Assembly: GCA_017303775.1 (NCBI GenBank)
Contig: JAFLCH010000007.1
Location: forward strand, 1-41,615
DNA length: 41,615 nt
Direction: 5' to 3'
Source of the DNA: Anaerolineae bacterium
GTDB taxonomy: Bacteria > Chloroflexota > Anaerolineae > Aggregatilineales > Phototrophicaceae
Position 1 is the stretch's first letter. Each line of letters opens with the position of its first letter. This document shows, piece after piece, positions 33,794 through 41,615 of this stretch. The position numbers were made by a program, and so were the translations under genes. The notes beneath the pieces were generated by a model that saw only the letters and a program-made list of their open reading frames with translations, made no database searches and was not told the origin of the DNA.

Positions 33794-34567
33794 ATGACGC
33801 AACCCGTAATTGTGCTGACCGGACAGCCTATCTGGGAAGATACAGTACGACGAGGACTCGAACCTGCGTACAGTGTAGTCGCTCTGAGCGATAAAAGCGG
33901 TTACGTCAAACGGTTGGCCGAGATGCGTCCAGCGTTGGTGCTGGTGGATGGGAAAGAGGCTGATTGGTCTTATTGGGTGACGACACCGAAAACCAGCCCA
34001 GCTACCCGCCGAATTCCAGTGGTATTGGTTGCCAGTGATTCTAGGCTGCGAGAAGCAGCCCGTTCAGCCGGGGCAGACGCCGTGATCTCCACCAGCGAAT
34101 TAGCAGCTCAACCAGCACAATTGGTTGAACAGTACGCACGGGTAAGCGACACAGCGCTGCTGGAAGCGCTGGAATGCGGATGCGCAGAGACACTTCCCCC
34201 GCTGGCAACTGAAGGTGTGGCGCAGTTCAACGCGGGGCACTACTATCGCCAGCACGATCTGTTTGAGGAACAGTGGGTTCAAACGGACGCACCGATCCGT
34301 GATTTGTACCGGGCGATTTTGCAGGTGGGGGTGGCGTACTATCAGATTGAACGGGGTAATCACCGTGGGGCGCTCAAAATGCTGCTGCGCAGTATTCAGT
34401 GGTTAGCGCCACTACCCGACGTATGTCAGGGGATAGATATTCGCCAACTCCGGCTGGACTCGGAAGCGGTGCGGGCGGCGCTTGAACAGATGAATCCGGC
34501 GGACATCGGTCACTTTGACCGCAGCCTGTTTAAGCCGATACGCCTCGTGGATCCTTCAAGGGCATGA
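33794..34567 (+). CDS. Pseudo-receiver fused to a DUF309 domain
   Basis: A 257-residue protein. Residues 1-117 look like a response-regulator receiver: beta strands at VIVLTG, ALVLVDG and IPVVLVAS, then GADAVIST. Asp52 is present, but the N-terminal acidic pair and the conserved Lys are missing, so phosphorylation is doubtful. Residues 135-200 match DUF309: FNAGHYYRQHDLFEEQW (H154, E158, E159, W161), IRDLYRAILQVGVAYY and GNHRGALKMLLRS. DUF309 is usually a stand-alone protein of unknown function. The ATG at 33794 lies nine bases after the phosphorylase stop. It overlaps the next gene by four bases. Confidence 0.85.
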   Translation: MTQPVIVLTGQPIWEDTVRRGLEPAYSVVALSDKSGYVKRLAEMRPALVLVDGKEADWSYWVTTPKTSPATRRIPVVLVASDSRLREAARSAGADAVISTSELAAQPAQLVEQYARVSDTALLEALECGCAETLPPLATEGVAQFNAGHYYRQHDLFEEQWVQTDAPIRDLYRAILQVGVAYYQIERGNHRGALKMLLRSIQWLAPLPDVCQGIDIRQLRLDSEAVRAALEQMNPADIGHFDRSLFKPIRLVDPSRA

Positions 34568-35640
34568 AAGCCGCGCTGCGCTTTTCGGGTTTGCTGCTGG
34601 TGATGAGCGGAGTGCTGCTGGCCTTTACGCTGGGGACGGCTGTGGCGGCACAGGGTGGGAAACAAATCGCCTATGTCGATTGGCAAGGAAGCTACCGCAT
34701 TGTCTTGCACGATGCGGCCAGCAAGCTCGAACGGGTGATCCTGCGGCAGACGGCAGAACCCTGCTGTTTGTCGTTTTCGCCAGATGGGCGCTGGCTCGCT
34801 TTTTTGATGTCGTTGAACGATGGGCCGCCGCGCATCGGTGTGATTCCGTGGGGCGGAGGCAGCCCGTACCATCCGGTTGACAGTTATGTGACTGCCGTGC
34901 GACCACAGTGGTCACCGGACAGCGAATGGGTAGCATTCCGGCATCAGTACGCAAACCCGACCAGTGTGGAGGCACACCGGAGTGAACGCCGCCTGCGCGA
35001 CCCACAACTGCCTGACGGGCGCGATGCCTTCCCGATTTGGTCACCCGATGGGCAGCAGGTGGCGTTGGTCAGTGATGAAACGATCAGCCTCGTTCCGGCG
35101 GCGTGCTTGTACAAGGCGGATGAATGCGATGCGCCGAAACAGGTGAACAGGGCAGAACAGCAAGTTAGCGGGATGCCGGTGTGGTCGTCTGATTCGAGCC
35201 GGTTGGCGTTCGTCGCCGTCGTGAACCGGCGCAGCGAGGTGTTTGTGGCAGCGGTGGTCTGCCCGGCAGTGTGCCCGGAGGCTGTGGCAATGACGACGGA
35301 TGGGCAGGACAAGCGTACACCGGTTTGGTCACCGGATGGGCGGTATCTGGCTTATTCAGGGCGCGATGGTGGGGCATACGCTGTTTTCTTGTTGGAGGCA
35401 AGCTGCGCTGAAATTCAGGCAGCCTGTTCACCCCGACGGCTCGGCCCTGAAGGAAATAGTTTCGCGCCAGCGTGGTCGAGCGACGGCACAGAAATTCTTT
35501 TCACGCTTGAGGCGGTCGGGACGGCCAGCGGTAGACGCATTAGCATCCAAAGCGTCACGGTGGAGGGGATTGTTCAAAGTCTGCGTGATGGATTGTTCTT
35601 CAACCCGTCAGCCGTTTGGTGGTACGGGTTGGGGGAGTAA
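34564..35640 (+). CDS. Secreted TolB-like beta-propeller protein
   Basis: A 358-residue exported protein with a signal peptide in residues 1-29 (hydrophobic LLLVMSGVLLAFTLGTAVAAQ). At least six PD40/WD40-like repeats follow, each with a W/FSPDG-type core: CLSFSPDGRWLAF, PQWSPDSEWVAF, PIWSPDGQQVAL, PVWSSDSSRLAF, PVWSPDGRYLAY, PAWSSDGTEILF. Such propellers act as binding scaffolds. Its ATG overlaps the stop of the DUF309 gene (ATGA), so it is in the same operon as a cytoplasmic phosphorylase, an unexplained pairing. Confidence 0.88.
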   Translation: MKAALRFSGLLLVMSGVLLAFTLGTAVAAQGGKQIAYVDWQGSYRIVLHDAASKLERVILRQTAEPCCLSFSPDGRWLAFLMSLNDGPPRIGVIPWGGGSPYHPVDSYVTAVRPQWSPDSEWVAFRHQYANPTSVEAHRSERRLRDPQLPDGRDAFPIWSPDGQQVALVSDETISLVPAACLYKADECDAPKQVNRAEQQVSGMPVWSSDSSRLAFVAVVNRRSEVFVAAVVCPAVCPEAVAMTTDGQDKRTPVWSPDGRYLAYSGRDGGAYAVFLLEASCAEIQAACSPRRLGPEGNSFAPAWSSDGTEILFTLEAVGTASGRRISIQSVTVEGIVQSLRDGLFFNPSAVWWYGLGE

Positions 35641-35856: not shown

Positions 35857-38800
35857 TCAACCAACGTTTTGACCGGTGCCAGAGGTACAGACCGGATCGT
35901 TATCCGAGATGCCAAATTGAGCGCGCTGCTGCGGTGTCAGGTCGAGCGGACTGCGTGCACAGAAGGAGTGGATCACGTCATCCAATTCGGTACGCCAGAT
36001 ATAGACTTGATTATCCAATTCAGCGCCGGTCATGACATAATTGCCATCGGGCGAAAACTCGGCCCAATATAAACCTCTGGCATCACCATTATCGAGTACA
36101 CGGAGCGTTTGGCCGGTGGCAACATCCCAGATACGGGCTGTTCCGTCCCAACTAGCTGTGACCACGCGGGTGCCATCCAGTGAGAAGCGCGCCGTCCATA
36201 TGACATCGGTATGCCCGACCAGAAGATGAACCGTTTCTCCGGTGGCGACATCGATCAGATGACCGAAGCCATTGGCGTCTGCGAGTGTGATCAATTTGCT
36301 ATCCGGAGAAAACTGCCCGTAGGGGGTCGGCACACCGGTTTCGATCACGCGGATGATCTGGCCGGTCCCGGTATCCCAAAGCCGCACCGTGTTATCGCTG
36401 CTGGTGGTCAGCAGCAGCTTACCATCGGGCGAGAGGGAAGAGGACGACACGACGCCGGTATGCCCCTCCAGAATATGCAAGGTTTCACCGGTGGCAACAT
36501 CCCAGATGCGAGCTGTCAGATCAAAACTGCCTGTTGCAACACGACGACCATCCTCCGAGAAATCGATGAAGTTGATCCCCTGTGTATGCCCGACAAACTG
36601 TTGGAGGATGTCACCACTTTCGGCATCAATCAGGTATCCGTTGTAATCCGGGTCGGCAACCGAGTCTTCGTATGCCACAAACAACGTCTTTCCGTCCGGC
36701 GCAATATCTAGCACGCGAATCGGCTGGTCATAAGTGATGAGCGGCGCGTCCGGCGCATTCAAATCCCAGCGCGAATATTGACCGAAACCACCGATATAGG
36801 CAATCTGACCATCCGGCGAGAAGCGAGGGAAATAGGCTTTATCATACTGATCGGTCACGATTTGGCGCGGCTCAGAGGGAAAACCCAGATCCCAGATTGA
36901 GGCGATATTCCACTGCATCATCAAAAGAAACTGCCCATCGGGCGAAATATCTAGGGAAAGGATACGCGAGGTGGTGGTGTAACGATTCAGTTGGGTGCCG
37001 GTTCGTGCGCCCCATTCAAAGGCAGAACCGGAATCATCACCTGTGATCATCACATCGCGGCTAGGATCATAGTCGGCAGCGAATATCCCGTCCGTGTGGG
37101 CGCTAAAAGTCGCCAAGGTGGTGCAAGTGTCGATATCCCATGTGCGGGCGACGTTGGCTTCGTCCGTCACCAGCACGACTCCATACATGTCGAACGAGAA
37201 GATCGATTTTAGAGGTGGCAAACCGGCTTCCACCAGTGTGCAGCCGACCTCACCGGTCTCCGCATTTTCGAGATAGGCGTGATTATCGGCAGCATCTTTG
37301 ACTACAAGCCAGAAGACGCTGTCGCCATCATAGATCGCGGAACTGAGCTGATTCGCGTCCGAACGACTGCGGAAATAGAGAGTAGGGTTACTGGCCTCCT
37401 CAATATTCCACAATTCGTAGCGATCTCTTAGCCGTGTCGCAAAGCTGGTACCATCCGGCGCAATTTGAACATAGAACACTTCTTCGCCGGTGGGGTAGAC
37501 CCGGATCGGCTGCCCACTTTCAACATCCCATAGCGTTGGGTCTTCGTGTGTTCCCACGCTTAAAAGCTGTTTACCATCAGGCGAGAATACGATGTCATAA
37601 ACAATGCCTGTCTGCGCAATCATGAGCAGTTCGGTGCCGGTTTGGGTGTCGTAAATGCGGGTGCCGCCTTCGGTTGAGGTGGCAACACGAGTGCCATCGG
37701 GTGAAAAAGTCACTGTGTAAATCTCAAATTGATGTCCCTCGAAGTTGCGCAGGATCATCCCTTGACGGCTGGCACGCATCAGCGCGGCATCGGCACCTGA
37801 GGTATAGCCATAGGCAAGGCTGCGGATGGCTAAGGCCATACCGATGTTGCCGACGGCTTTATCATCCATGGCGTTATCGGCGGCAAGGTAAAGGCGCTGC
37901 TGTTCGGCGCGGGCGAAATTCGCATCACTGGTGGCTAAAGCGCGCTGGGTGTTGTCCCGTTCAGTTTCGGCCTCACGGGCGTTGTTGAGGGCCGCGCTGC
38001 TGAGGGCGATTGCGCCGATGGTGGCGAACAGCAGCACGGCAACCAAGCCGCGCAGGAAAGTTTGTGAGCGGCGCTCCAAACGCTGTTCGTGCAGCCGGCG
38101 TTCGGCTTCCTGCGCCTGTTCTAATTCCCAGTGGCGCTGGCTGGAGTCTAGAAATTCGTGTTCCAGCGAGGTGAGGGTGAGACCGGTGACCCCCGCCCAC
38201 TGGGTGAAGGTTTGCAGCCGCACACCCCGCACGAGATCGCTGGTGTCTTTGCCGGCGGCCTTCCATTCCTGCGCCATGGTGGAAAGCTGGCGCTGCAAGC
38301 GGATTTCATCGCGGCTTTCGTTGAGCCAGAGGCGGAGGCGTTCCCACTCGCGCACTAATGCTTCGTGGGCGACTTCTACCGTGGGGCTGCGGGTGCCGGG
38401 GTCGGTATCCAGCGAGAGCAAACGGTAGGCAGCAAAGGTGTCGATCACTTCTTCGAGGGTATCGGTATCTTCGGATAAGGCTTGAAGTTCGGAGCGGGCG
38501 GTGCGCCGTCGGGTGTCCTCGACACCTTCGCCCAAGGTGACGAGGCGGAGAAAGATTTGACGGGTGAATTCCTGCCCCTGCGGGTTGAGATCGCGGTAGA
38601 TGTCTTCGGCACGTTTGGCGAGCGCGCCGACTGTGCCGCCGATGGATTGATAGGCTTCGCGGGTGAGCGTCCGCCCGCGCCGCAGTTCAAAGAGTTCGGT
38701 GAGGGCGTATTGCAGCAGGGGGAGCGCGCCCGGTTGATAATTCACGTCGCCGATGATGGTGGTGACCAACCCCGGCTCGAAGGCCACACCAACGCGCTCG

Positions 38801-40536
38801 GCGGGTTGGCTGATGGCGCGTTCGAGTTCCTCGGTGGAAAGGGGCATGATGGTTTCCAGCCGGGAATGTACGAGTTCGCCGAATTGGGGGTAATGAAGAG
38901 GGCGGTCATAAAAGTCGGCGCGCAGGGTGATGATGACGCGGACACGGCTGCGCGGTTCGATGATGGATTGGTAGAGGAGATCGAGGAACTGAGTGCGTTC
39001 GGTTTCATCGGCAGTCAGGGTGAAGAGTTCCTCGAATTGGTCGATCACCAAGACCAGTTCCGAGTTATCCTGCGGGAGGACGAGGCCGGCGGCACGGACG
39101 AGACCGCGATTGTCGCGCCGGAGATGCTCTTGAAGGCTGCTGATTTGCTGGGAGGCGACCCGCGTGAGGGCGACTTCCAGTTCATCGAAGGGATGTGTGC
39201 CGGGCATCATCTCGACCACGAACCATTTTTCAGAGCCGGGGAGATCACCGCGCCAGAGGGAGGGGACGAGACCGGCTTTGACGAGGCTGGACTTGCCACT
39301 ACCGCTGGGGCCGACAACGGCTAGAAAACGGCGATAATCACCGGACTCGGCCATGCGGTGGATGAGGCGGGCGGTGACTTTTTCGCGCCCGTAGAAATCC
39401 TGATGATCCGCTGATTGAAAGGCGAGCAAGCCTTTATAGGGGTTGTGGGGGTAGAAGTCTTCGGTAGGAATGGGGACGGCGTTGATGGACTCGCCGGGGC
39501 GAACGATGAGATTGAGTTCACGAGCGCGGACGATGGCCTGTACACGACTGCGGACGCCTAGCTTGCCGTAAATCTGGTTGACGTGCCACTTGACTGTACC
39601 CAAGGTGACGGTCAGACGTTGGGCGATTTCCTTGTTGGCCATGCCGTCGATGATCATTTGCAGGATTTCATGCTCGCGCCGGGTGAGCAGTTCCTCGACC
39701 GAGGTTGGTGAGCGGTGGAGGCCGATGGCTTCGCGGAAGTCGGCGGCCAGCGCGAGGGCATCGGGGTAGCGATGGTCGGGATTTTTGGCGGTGGCCTTTT
39801 GAATGACACGGTTGATGGCGGTTTGCAACTGCGGCTCTAGACTGTCGATCTGCGGCAGGGGATCGTTAATGTGTTTGTAGAGCCGTTCGATGGCGGAGAT
39901 GCCTTCAAAGGGGTGATGCCCGGTAATGATTTCGTAGAGGGTGACGCCCAGACTGTAAATATCGGTTCGGGCGGTGACGGGTTCACTGCGAGCCTGTTCG
40001 GGCGAAATATAATCCAGCGAACCGACGATGACATCCTGCTGGGTGTGGTTGTCGGGCAGGTTGAGGTCTTTGGCGATGCCGAAATCGGTGAGGTAGGCGT
40101 TGCCATCTTCATCGAGGAGGATGTTGCCGGGTTTGATGTCACGGTGGATGACACCGCTGCGATGGGCGAGGGAGAGGGCGGCGGCGATTTGATCGAGCAG
40201 GAGCGCGGCTGAACGCAGTTCAAAGGGGCCGTTGGCGAGGGCATCACGGAGGCTGCCGCCCCGCAGCCAGCGCATGACGAGATAAGCTCCCTGCGGGTCG
40301 CGCCAGTAGTCGTAGAGAGGCGTGATGTGGGGGTGTTCCAGCCGGGCGACGAGCTGGGCTTCACTTTCAAAACGGCGGATGAAATCCGGTTGGTTGGAGA
40401 GGCCGGGGAGGATGATCTTGATGGCGACTTCGCGGCCAACGGTGGATTGGTAAGCCTTGTAGACGGCACCGAACCCCCCTGCACCAATTCGTTCGCGCAG
40501 GTCGTAGCCTTTGATCTGTTGGACAGGTGCTTCCAT
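35857..40536 (-). CDS. Ser/Thr kinase - LuxR HTH - NTPase - membrane segment - WD40 protein
   Basis: A 1559-residue multidomain protein. Residues 10-270 are a Hanks-type kinase: glycine loop GAGGFGAV, Lys40, HRDIKPGN (Asp133), DFG (151-153), SPEQ. Residues 282-345 are a complete LuxR/GerE helix-turn-helix (LTRREHEILQMIIDGMANKE, TVKWHVNQIYGKLGVRSR). Residues 365-780 are a STAND-type NTPase with GPSGSGKSS (409-417) and LVLVIDQFEEL (494-504). A coiled coil and one hydrophobic segment (about 825-847) follow, then WD40 repeats from about 940 to 1530 (GHTxxV...FSPDG...W). The ATG at 40536 has GGGGGAG five bases upstream. All kinase catalytic residues are present, so it should be active. It probably relays an external or envelope signal; the target is unknown. 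Confidence 0.92.
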   Translation of the reverse strand: MEAPVQQIKGYDLRERIGAGGFGAVYKAYQSTVGREVAIKIILPGLSNQPDFIRRFESEAQLVARLEHPHITPLYDYWRDPQGAYLVMRWLRGGSLRDALANGPFELRSAALLLDQIAAALSLAHRSGVIHRDIKPGNILLDEDGNAYLTDFGIAKDLNLPDNHTQQDVIVGSLDYISPEQARSEPVTARTDIYSLGVTLYEIITGHHPFEGISAIERLYKHINDPLPQIDSLEPQLQTAINRVIQKATAKNPDHRYPDALALAADFREAIGLHRSPTSVEELLTRREHEILQMIIDGMANKEIAQRLTVTLGTVKWHVNQIYGKLGVRSRVQAIVRARELNLIVRPGESINAVPIPTEDFYPHNPYKGLLAFQSADHQDFYGREKVTARLIHRMAESGDYRRFLAVVGPSGSGKSSLVKAGLVPSLWRGDLPGSEKWFVVEMMPGTHPFDELEVALTRVASQQISSLQEHLRRDNRGLVRAAGLVLPQDNSELVLVIDQFEELFTLTADETERTQFLDLLYQSIIEPRSRVRVIITLRADFYDRPLHYPQFGELVHSRLETIMPLSTEELERAISQPAERVGVAFEPGLVTTIIGDVNYQPGALPLLQYALTELFELRRGRTLTREAYQSIGGTVGALAKRAEDIYRDLNPQGQEFTRQIFLRLVTLGEGVEDTRRRTARSELQALSEDTDTLEEVIDTFAAYRLLSLDTDPGTRSPTVEVAHEALVREWERLRLWLNESRDEIRLQRQLSTMAQEWKAAGKDTSDLVRGVRLQTFTQWAGVTGLTLTSLEHEFLDSSQRHWELEQAQEAERRLHEQRLERRSQTFLRGLVAVLLFATIGAIALSSAALNNAREAETERDNTQRALATSDANFARAEQQRLYLAADNAMDDKAVGNIGMALAIRSLAYGYTSGADAALMRASRQGMILRNFEGHQFEIYTVTFSPDGTRVATSTEGGTRIYDTQTGTELLMIAQTGIVYDIVFSPDGKQLLSVGTHEDPTLWDVESGQPIRVYPTGEEVFYVQIAPDGTSFATRLRDRYELWNIEEASNPTLYFRSRSDANQLSSAIYDGDSVFWLVVKDAADNHAYLENAETGEVGCTLVEAGLPPLKSIFSFDMYGVVLVTDEANVARTWDIDTCTTLATFSAHTDGIFAADYDPSRDVMITGDDSGSAFEWGARTGTQLNRYTTTSRILSLDISPDGQFLLMMQWNIASIWDLGFPSEPRQIVTDQYDKAYFPRFSPDGQIAYIGGFGQYSRWDLNAPDAPLITYDQPIRVLDIAPDGKTLFVAYEDSVADPDYNGYLIDAESGDILQQFVGHTQGINFIDFSEDGRRVATGSFDLTARIWDVATGETLHILEGHTGVVSSSSLSPDGKLLLTTSSDNTVRLWDTGTGQIIRVIETGVPTPYGQFSPDSKLITLADANGFGHLIDVATGETVHLLVGHTDVIWTARFSLDGTRVVTASWDGTARIWDVATGQTLRVLDNGDARGLYWAEFSPDGNYVMTGAELDNQVYIWRTELDDVIHSFCARSPLDLTPQQRAQFGISDNDPVCTSGTGQNVG

Positions 40537-40565
40537 ATGCTCCCCCTTGAGATTGATCGAGAACA

Positions 40566-40595
40566 CGCGGGCAGCCCGCGCCGTGACTGCCCGCG
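40566..40595 (-). other. Strong GC hairpin between the SnoaL-like and kinase genes
   Basis: CGCGGGCAG (40566-40574) and CTGCCCGCG (40587-40595) form a perfect 9-bp stem with a 12-base loop. It occupies the 71-base gap, 30 bases before the kinase start, with no T run. It may act as an attenuator, RNA processing site or 3' stabiliser. Confidence 0.55.
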
Positions 40596-40607
40596 CAGCG
40601 TGTCTGT

Positions 40608-41147
40608 TTACGAACCCGGTGCGGGCATCGCGCCTAACTGGGTGAGAAAACCGAGGACATCAAACTGCACCCATTCTTCGATGATCTTGCCGTCATCGTT
40701 GAATTGGAAGATGTTGATGACCTCGACGACCACGGGGCCGCCGGTCGGGGGGATCGGCCCCATGGGGCTGGCGTATTCGTTTTCGAAGATGCCGCTGATG
40801 GTGAGGCGGGTGGCGGCGAAACGGCCATCGACGAGGATATTCTCGCGCACCATGTTGAAATCGGTGAGGGCGGCTTGCACGCTGGTGAAGAAACCTGCCA
40901 AGCCGTCACGATCCAGATCACCTAAGGGTGTGTGTACTACGTATTCATCAGCAATAAAATCGCTGAGATTTTCGTAACTGCCGGGGAGGATGACCTCCTC
41001 TGCCACACGGATGAGGGACTCGCGCTGGGCTTCTTCCTGCTCCGGCGTGACGGGGGTTTCTTCCTGTGCAAAGGCAAAGGTGAAGGTCAATAAGGCGATC
41101 AAGAGTAGGCTCAAAATCATGCCTAAGCGCTTCTGCCTGCTGTTCAT
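40608..41147 (-). CDS. Exported SnoaL-like (ester cyclase/NTF2-fold) protein
   Basis: A 179-residue protein with a signal peptide (LGMILSLLLIALLTFTFAFAQ) and a SnoaL-like domain of the NTF2 fold: NLSDFIADEYVVHTPLGDL, GLAGFFTSVQAALTDFNM, then VVVEVINIFQFNDDGKIIEEWVQFD. Members bind small hydrophobic ligands or catalyse cyclisation or isomerisation; the fold alone does not give an activity. The ATG at 41147 has AAGGAG eight bases upstream; a TTG two codons earlier is less likely. It lies 71 bases upstream of the kinase gene on the same strand and is probably co-transcribed. Confidence 0.87.
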   Translation of the reverse strand: MNSRQKRLGMILSLLLIALLTFTFAFAQEETPVTPEQEEAQRESLIRVAEEVILPGSYENLSDFIADEYVVHTPLGDLDRDGLAGFFTSVQAALTDFNMVRENILVDGRFAATRLTISGIFENEYASPMGPIPPTGGPVVVEVINIFQFNDDGKIIEEWVQFDVLGFLTQLGAMPAPGS

Positions 41148-41282
41148 GGTCAAGACTCCTTTTTAATTAACTTATAGGACTTACGAAGCGAGGGGCGTGG
41201 TTTAGAGGCAGCCTTGAGGGTGTAGATGACCGTACCCTACGTAGTGAGGATTACAGTACCCGCTTCGTCGATTGTAGCATCA

Positions 41283-41615
41283 CTATGAGGATGGCGCGGC
41301 GGGCGGGAACGCACCGATTTGAGCGAGAACGCCGACCATATCCAGCACGGCCCAATTTTCCTCGACGAGACCTTCATCATTGAAGCGGAGGATGCCGATG
41401 CCTTCCATGAGGATGGGGTTGCCGGTGGGCGGGTAGACACCGAAGAGCGTGCCGGTGTGGGTGCCGGTGTAGGTGACGCGGACGACGAGTTCGTGCTCAC
41501 CGATGATGGTGGCGTGGGTGGTCTGGATCATGTCGGGGACGCCCAAGCGGAAGGTGTCGATGTAATCCTTCAGCCCTTGCAGGTCGATTTCGGGGGCGAG
41601 AGGAAGGTGGCCGAC
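41283..41615 (-). CDS. SnoaL-like (ester cyclase) protein, 5' part outside the window
   Basis: The last 110 codons of a second SnoaL-like protein, reading into the window from beyond 41615. It shows LKDYIDTFRLGVPDM, IIGEHELVVRVTYTGTHTG and GIGILRFNDEGLVEENWAVLDMVGVLAQIG. The last part parallels DDGKIIEEWVQFDVLGFLTQLG in the next gene, so the two are likely tandem paralogues. Its N-terminus and any signal peptide cannot be seen. Confidence 0.8.
   Translation of the reverse strand, partial: VGHLPLAPEIDLQGLKDYIDTFRLGVPDMIQTTHATIIGEHELVVRVTYTGTHTGTLFGVYPPTGNPILMEGIGILRFNDEGLVEENWAVLDMVGVLAQIGAFPPAAPSS

Follow-up and report, generated by a model that had tools for sequence, protein, structure and literature searches.

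Architecture of the locus

The DNA analysed here, called the window below, is the whole stretch of 41,615 nt from an Anaerolineae bacterium (contig JAFLCH010000007.1, whose full length it spans; genome completeness of the assembly 76%). Its last part carries one long kinase gene with two genes for SnoaL-like proteins directly upstream and in the same direction (Table 1). The start of the kinase gene is likely ATG 40536 rather than GTG 40566, because the Shine-Dalgarno-like AAGGGGGAG precedes it, and this start gives a product of 1559 aa.

Table 1 Features of the kinase locus in the window
Feature	Positions	Strand	Residues of ORF 35857-40566 (-)	Basis
Pkinase-GerE-nSTAND1-TM-WD40 protein, 1559 aa	35857..40536	-		ATG 40536, Shine-Dalgarno-like AAGGGGGAG
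Ser/Thr protein kinase domain	39712..40506	-	21 to ~285	Pfam; catalytic motifs intact; K50, D143 and D161 invariant in 31/31 relatives
LuxR/GerE-type helix-turn-helix domain	39523..39690	-	293-348	Pfam profile, conserved core, structural neighbours
nSTAND1 NTPase domain	38242..39441	-	376-775	Pfam; Walker A GPSGSGKSS, Walker B LVIDQFEE
Single predicted membrane helix FLRGLVAVLLFATIGAIALSSAAL	37981..38058	-	~837-862	Hydropathy; 34/34 relatives
WD40 beta-propeller region	35977..37779	-	~930-1530	Pfam; probably extracytoplasmic by inferred topology
Intergenic stretch with stable RNA hairpin, SnoaL-kinase	40537..40607	-		z -2.3
Exported SnoaL-like (NTF2-fold) protein 1, complete, clear signal peptide MNSRQKRLGMILSLLLIALLTFTFAFA	40608..41147	-		Pfam, fold model
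SnoaL-like protein 2, 5' end cut by contig end	41283..41615	-		Pfam

The sequence-only reading of this DNA had placed a LuxR helix-turn-helix (HTH) between a kinase and an NTPase, in one chain with a membrane segment and a WD40 propeller, and Pfam and hydropathy analysis agreed with that layout. The GerE/LuxR profile matched with an E-value of 5.7e-18 (64.7 bits, cut-off 23.5) and nSTAND1 with 3e-123 (412 bits). A single hydrophobic segment stood out, with a Kyte-Doolittle value of 2.29 against 1.19 for the next best, and it lies 60-odd residues C-terminal of nSTAND1. From this one helix and the positive-inside rule, the propeller is probably extracytoplasmic. The Hanks-type catalytic motifs GxGxxG, VAIK, HRDxKPxN, DFG and SPE were all present, both Walker motifs were intact, and the signature residues of kinase, NTPase and HTH were preserved among relatives, those of the kinase and the Walker motifs without exception. 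At the level of sequence, the kinase, earlier described as apparently active, is shown to be under selection to remain active. The predicted structure of the kinase-HTH-NTPase half (pLDDT 70, pTM 0.38) was too poor for judging HTH exposure or domain packing. A gene for an exported PD40/TolB-like propeller (34564-35640, +) is convergent with the kinase gene and gave no sign of belonging to the system.

Elsewhere, STAND-WD40 proteins have been discussed as conflict systems, and predicted systems of this kind typically join nSTAND1 to effector and sensor domains (PMC7159879, PMC10907252). The same layout could thus be read as an anti-invader protein, in which the propeller would detect the invader, nSTAND1 would assemble, the kinase would be the effector and the HTH would serve only autoregulation. 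PADLOC kinase models did match the kinase domain, but the top matches were generic kinase models, so a defence reading based on them was set aside. The genes examined showed no effector-associated domain, DGR or toxin partner, and the best 25 of 48 Pfam matches contained no EAD, TIR or protease domain. The propeller is seemingly extracytoplasmic and the predicted targets described below are exported proteins, which also speaks against defence; we regard this reading as the least probable of the alternatives considered here.

Distribution of the family and conservation of the HTH

Relatives were searched with a 215-aa query covering the kinase end, the HTH and the nSTAND1 start. Full-span relatives were found in many genomes of the window's family, and the 29 named loci were nearly all from Chloroflexota, mostly Anaerolineae. 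In surveys that scored ten candidates per genome, the full span was present in a minority of 298 genomes of the class, namely in families of the same order and one other (f40), and among 301 genomes of the phylum it was confined to the class Anaerolineae. The record of one relative, L031 (JAHHHY010000009.1), is titled Pleurocapsa minor, which is probably a mislabelling, since the gene belongs with those of Anaerolineae.

HTH-less kinase-nSTAND1-WD40 proteins co-occur with these relatives. The window's genome encodes three, one of which is truncated where its contig ends. When kinase and NTPase sequences were combined in a tree, one branch separated 35 HTH carriers from 8 HTH-less proteins (99/92; 99% of bootstraps), a pattern that one gain or one loss of the HTH could explain. 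Kinase-less HTH-nSTAND1-WD40 versions exist as well, and two of them that bear the motif described below took no firm position in the NTPase tree. Other arrangements were also observed. L089:5880-9764 (-) encodes a variant chain of Pkinase, GerE, an AAA/STAND-like P-loop and TPR, with no WD40 match and no operator motif. Proteins of 964-992 aa with an N-terminal LuxR HTH followed by a P-loop NTPase, the reverse of the MalT order, are encoded at L086, L087, L088 and L091; NB-ARC plus TPR was confirmed at L086 and L088, and the operator motif was absent from all four.

The HTH positions LT-RE, NxEIA, TVKW, KL-V-R and QAI were invariant across diverse relatives, and the nearest solved domains were the DNA-binding domains of LiaR-like proteins, VraR and NarL. 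With a Pfam score above the cut-off and a conserved HTH core, the domain belongs to the LuxR type (GerE), and judged by these features it is a canonical LuxR domain throughout the HTH clade, which speaks against a non-DNA-binding linker. The regulatory evidence for DNA binding, given next, is stronger than the HTH sequence itself.

A candidate operator upstream of HTH kinase genes

A comparison of 12-mers with one mismatch allowed gave 38 shared words upstream of the SnoaL genes at L030, L031, L035 and L048, and none in shuffled sequences. Their common stretch AGGGGGATRGGGAAAAGTTAGGG also directly precedes the kinase gene in relatives that lack SnoaL genes; where SnoaL genes intervene, the motif remains at the head of the operon. 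The refined motif is 24 bp long, RGGGGGnTRGGRAAAAGTnAGGKA, and mostly lies 85-115 bp before the start codon. No shared motif was found in the SnoaL-kinase intergenic region across eight kinase upstreams, the operator preceding the SnoaL genes instead. By this placement, the window's own operator would lie beyond the contig end.

With a profile refined on the family, the leave-one-out score exceeded 10 in 31 of the 35 HTH carriers whose upstream sequence was long enough. None of nine HTH-less paralogues reached that score (best 2.9; Fisher p 1e-6), and the 99th percentile of shuffled upstreams was 9.5. GGRAAARG, counted without a seed in the final 250 bp, was present in 26/34 HTH carriers, 1/9 HTH-less proteins and 3% of shuffles. 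The HTH-less controls were few and form a separate clade, so these comparisons only partly separate an association with the HTH from one with the clade. Two kinase-less HTH-nSTAND1-WD40 proteins outside the training set also had the motif, at -92 and -85. Among the HTH carriers, L065 and L066 had no motif upstream, and L067 and one L068 copy had only a weak variant. Several loci carried two motif copies 22-25 bp apart. At L073, a membrane TPR-like gene (1986-2555) is divergent from a kinase-less LuxR-nSTAND1-WD40 gene (2645), with the motif between them.

The motif keeps a fixed relation to the promoter. A TATAAT-like -10 box started 25-28 nt past the motif at 16 of 30 loci, against a shuffle mean of 0.49, and no four-wide window held more than 5 in 500 shuffles; L034, where the motif is inverted, stood outside this assessment. 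Further -10 boxes were found at 38 and at 49-50 nt, that is, one and two helical turns on. The -35 boxes were poor (mean 2.9 of 6), with the SnoaL subclade (TTGAAN) as the exception. This layout is expected of class I/II activation, in which the activator contacts polymerase from a single face of the helix.

A TATAAT-like -10 box suggests a housekeeping promoter open to any activator, and membrane proteins whose HTHs serve protein contacts are known in general. The operator might accordingly belong to an unlinked transcription factor or an alternative sigma factor, the HTH being a non-DNA-binding dimerisation or scaffold module. But the motif accompanies HTH members, the kinase-less ones included, and is absent from the HTH-less paralogues, its genome-wide sites are nearly confined to these genes, as expected for a dedicated autoregulator, and the HTH retains its TVKW recognition-helix core and other conserved positions. 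We consider an unlinked factor rather improbable, and binding of the HTH to the 24-bp candidate operator is what we infer from the data.

Predicted regulon

Genomes were then scanned with the partial pattern GGRAAARGTNNGG plus the -10 spacing, in 98 family genomes and 396 class genomes, two overlapping sets that make 494 genome searches. The scan gave 15 distinct exact sites, and the reversed control gave 0. Twelve of the 15 also carried the G-run, which is absent from the search pattern, and scored 23-32 bits against the profile: nine lay before HTH kinases and three before genes of signal-peptide proteins, namely a 321-aa protein without Pfam match, a PAP2-like protein and a cupin. The other three sites (scores 7.6-9.0) look like chance matches. 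Allowing one mismatch in the pattern brought the counts close to those of the reversed control, so only exact sites with -10 spacing were used for other targets. At L037, an exported BD-FAE esterase gene beside the kinase gene has its own motif copy. The predicted regulon is thus small and, apart from the kinase, exported.

Some sites and neighbours were noted outside this count. A 21.7-bit site in the window's genome, L120:7184-7207 (-) (G000:C134), had the wrong -10 spacing and was left out; it lies about 140 bp before a gene for a 227-aa protein that looks sigma-like by eye and has no Pfam match, followed downstream by a zf-HC2 protein, a CHAT-TPR protein, a subtilisin-like protein and a LuxR-like ORF. 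An inverted motif of 27 bits at L116:1500-1523 (G058:C145) precedes the gene of a membrane TPR protein by about 126 bp, and the kinase on the same contig (L034/L130) likewise has an inverted motif. Genes for SBP_bac_5 solute-binding proteins adjoin HTH kinase genes at L040, L058 and L051 and suggest other exported partners. CFX10 has two HTH kinases with two ORFs of about 585 aa between them, and the ORF that was scanned is SBP_bac_5.

The motif could also be autoregulation left over from a LuxR ancestor, with phosphorylation of other proteins as the main output and the exported genes as bystanders. Since the same genome also encodes kinase-nSTAND1-WD40 paralogues that lack the HTH, DNA binding is not needed for the kinase to work. 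However, non-kinase predicted targets recur and are all exported (SnoaL, BD-FAE esterase, cupin, PAP2-like and the unknown 321-aa protein), and versions exist that keep the HTH without a kinase. We therefore hold such a relic to be unlikely, though less so than the other alternatives.

SnoaL-like genes upstream of the kinase

The sequence-only reading had noted exported NTF2-fold proteins encoded directly upstream, and had named a lack of conserved linkage as grounds against its interpretation. Export is clear for protein 1; for protein 2 a signal peptide was seen only in the orthologue L031. Linkage was found in one subclade only, in 5 of 9 close relatives. The kinase gene is directly preceded by SnoaL genes in the window, L030, L031 (a tandem pair, as in the window), L035 and L048, and the close relatives L047, L037, L033 and L034 have none there. 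Beyond the kinase, SnoaL was the sole common neighbour of the SnoaL-bearing loci, one weak far-upstream match aside. In a profile search of 12 genomes, the best six matches and the window's cut second copy adjoined the kinase, and other SnoaL domains scored 102 bits or less, a gap that is partly by construction, since the kinase-linked genes themselves had supplied the profile. About fifteen tandem SnoaL domains lie on a single contig at G058:C129:19974-28893.

Profile and fold both placed the proteins in the SnoaL/NTF2 fold: the model of protein 1 (pLDDT 84.5) has the SnoaL fold, with IdmH as the closest structure (Foldseek E 1e-10). Export argues against the classical polyketide cyclase role. 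They could be carriers of the propeller's ligand, as had been proposed; that they are merely exported proteins under the control of the switch fits equally well, because the other predicted targets are unrelated exported proteins. A hairpin between SnoaL and kinase genes was possible at all five loci (the window and four relatives; z -2.0 to -5.2), with a sequence that is not conserved, and it may hold kinase levels under SnoaL levels.

Comparison with known systems

No description of a kinase-LuxR-nSTAND1-WD40 layout was found in the open-licence literature, in keeping with the earlier remark that no such system was known. MalT and the LAL regulators come close in joining an ATP-dependent STAND switch to a LuxR-type HTH in one chain, with a G-rich operator near the promoter; the MalT box is GGGGA(T/G)GAGG. 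But they are soluble, have a C-terminal HTH and a TPR sensor and lack a kinase, whereas the window protein has nSTAND1, a membrane helix and WD40. It falls outside this group, since its HTH precedes the NTPase and no TPR was found among the best 25 of 48 Pfam matches. A SARP-LAL regulator with repeat operators is a further analogue among LuxR-type ATP-binding regulators (PMC5930380).

Transmembrane regulators such as CadC, ChiS and TfoS are published analogues, and those of the ToxR/CadC type bind DNA from the membrane through a cytoplasmic DNA-binding domain, one membrane helix and an extracytoplasmic sensor (PMC6320335, PMC11856585). The window protein resembles the ToxR/CadC type in the single helix that hydropathy predicts between a cytoplasmic DNA-binding domain and a presumed C-terminal sensor, but its HTH is GerE, whereas theirs is an OmpR-type winged HTH (Trans_reg_C) with no kinase or NTPase. 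ChiS/TfoS and the hybrid two-component systems of Bacteroides combine a membrane kinase and a DNA-binding domain in one chain. Those are histidine kinases without STAND NTPase or WD40, whereas the window protein has a Hanks-type Ser/Thr kinase. PknB-type receptor kinases share the cytoplasmic Ser/Thr kinase, one membrane helix and an extracytoplasmic domain; unlike them, the window protein has no PASTA repeats and carries an HTH and nSTAND1, and its NF033483 match was restricted to the kinase domain. By profile and both Walker motifs, nSTAND1 is a member of the STAND NTPases. The HTH-less Pkinase-nSTAND1-TM-WD40 proteins of Chloroflexota have the same layout minus the HTH and no operator motif.

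Proposed mechanism and significance

Taken together, we consider it fairly probable (about 0.7) that the protein acts from the membrane as a transmembrane one-component activator, with its own operon and a few exported proteins as targets. The idea of a membrane one-component DNA-binding switch, already put forward from the window, holds up in comparative sequence data, in which the candidate operator tracks the HTH across genomes. The C-terminal propeller, probably extracytoplasmic, would read a signal, and nSTAND1 would act as an ATP-dependent oligomerisation switch, by analogy with other STAND proteins. The LuxR HTH, held at the membrane on its cytoplasmic side, would then bind the G/A-rich operator of 24 bp a short way upstream of the -10 box and recruit RNA polymerase where the -35 box is poor. 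The promoters with this operator, whose presence and position were established computationally, would be those of its own gene and of a few exported-protein genes. In the window's subclade, the controlled operon would run operator - SnoaL gene(s) - kinase gene, an order by which the switch would control exported partners and itself. The kinase probably phosphorylates its own chain or a partner, which would set the state of the switch or its DNA binding, and this is the weakest step. That a propeller receptor, a STAND switch, a Hanks-type kinase and a transcription factor work together in one membrane-anchored chain, with a dedicated operator and exported targets that possibly bind or modify the ligand, is a reading we favour only slightly.

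Receptor kinases of the Hanks type, STAND switches and membrane one-component regulators are as a rule treated as distinct signal routes, and here they occur in one protein. Few signals and outputs of bacterial STAND-WD40 receptors are known; the readable output here would be a defined operator of 24 bp that keeps a constant distance to the -10 box, so that the receptor role becomes directly testable with a promoter reporter. The operator together with an export signal would also give a rule for finding the controlled genes in uncultured Anaerolineae.
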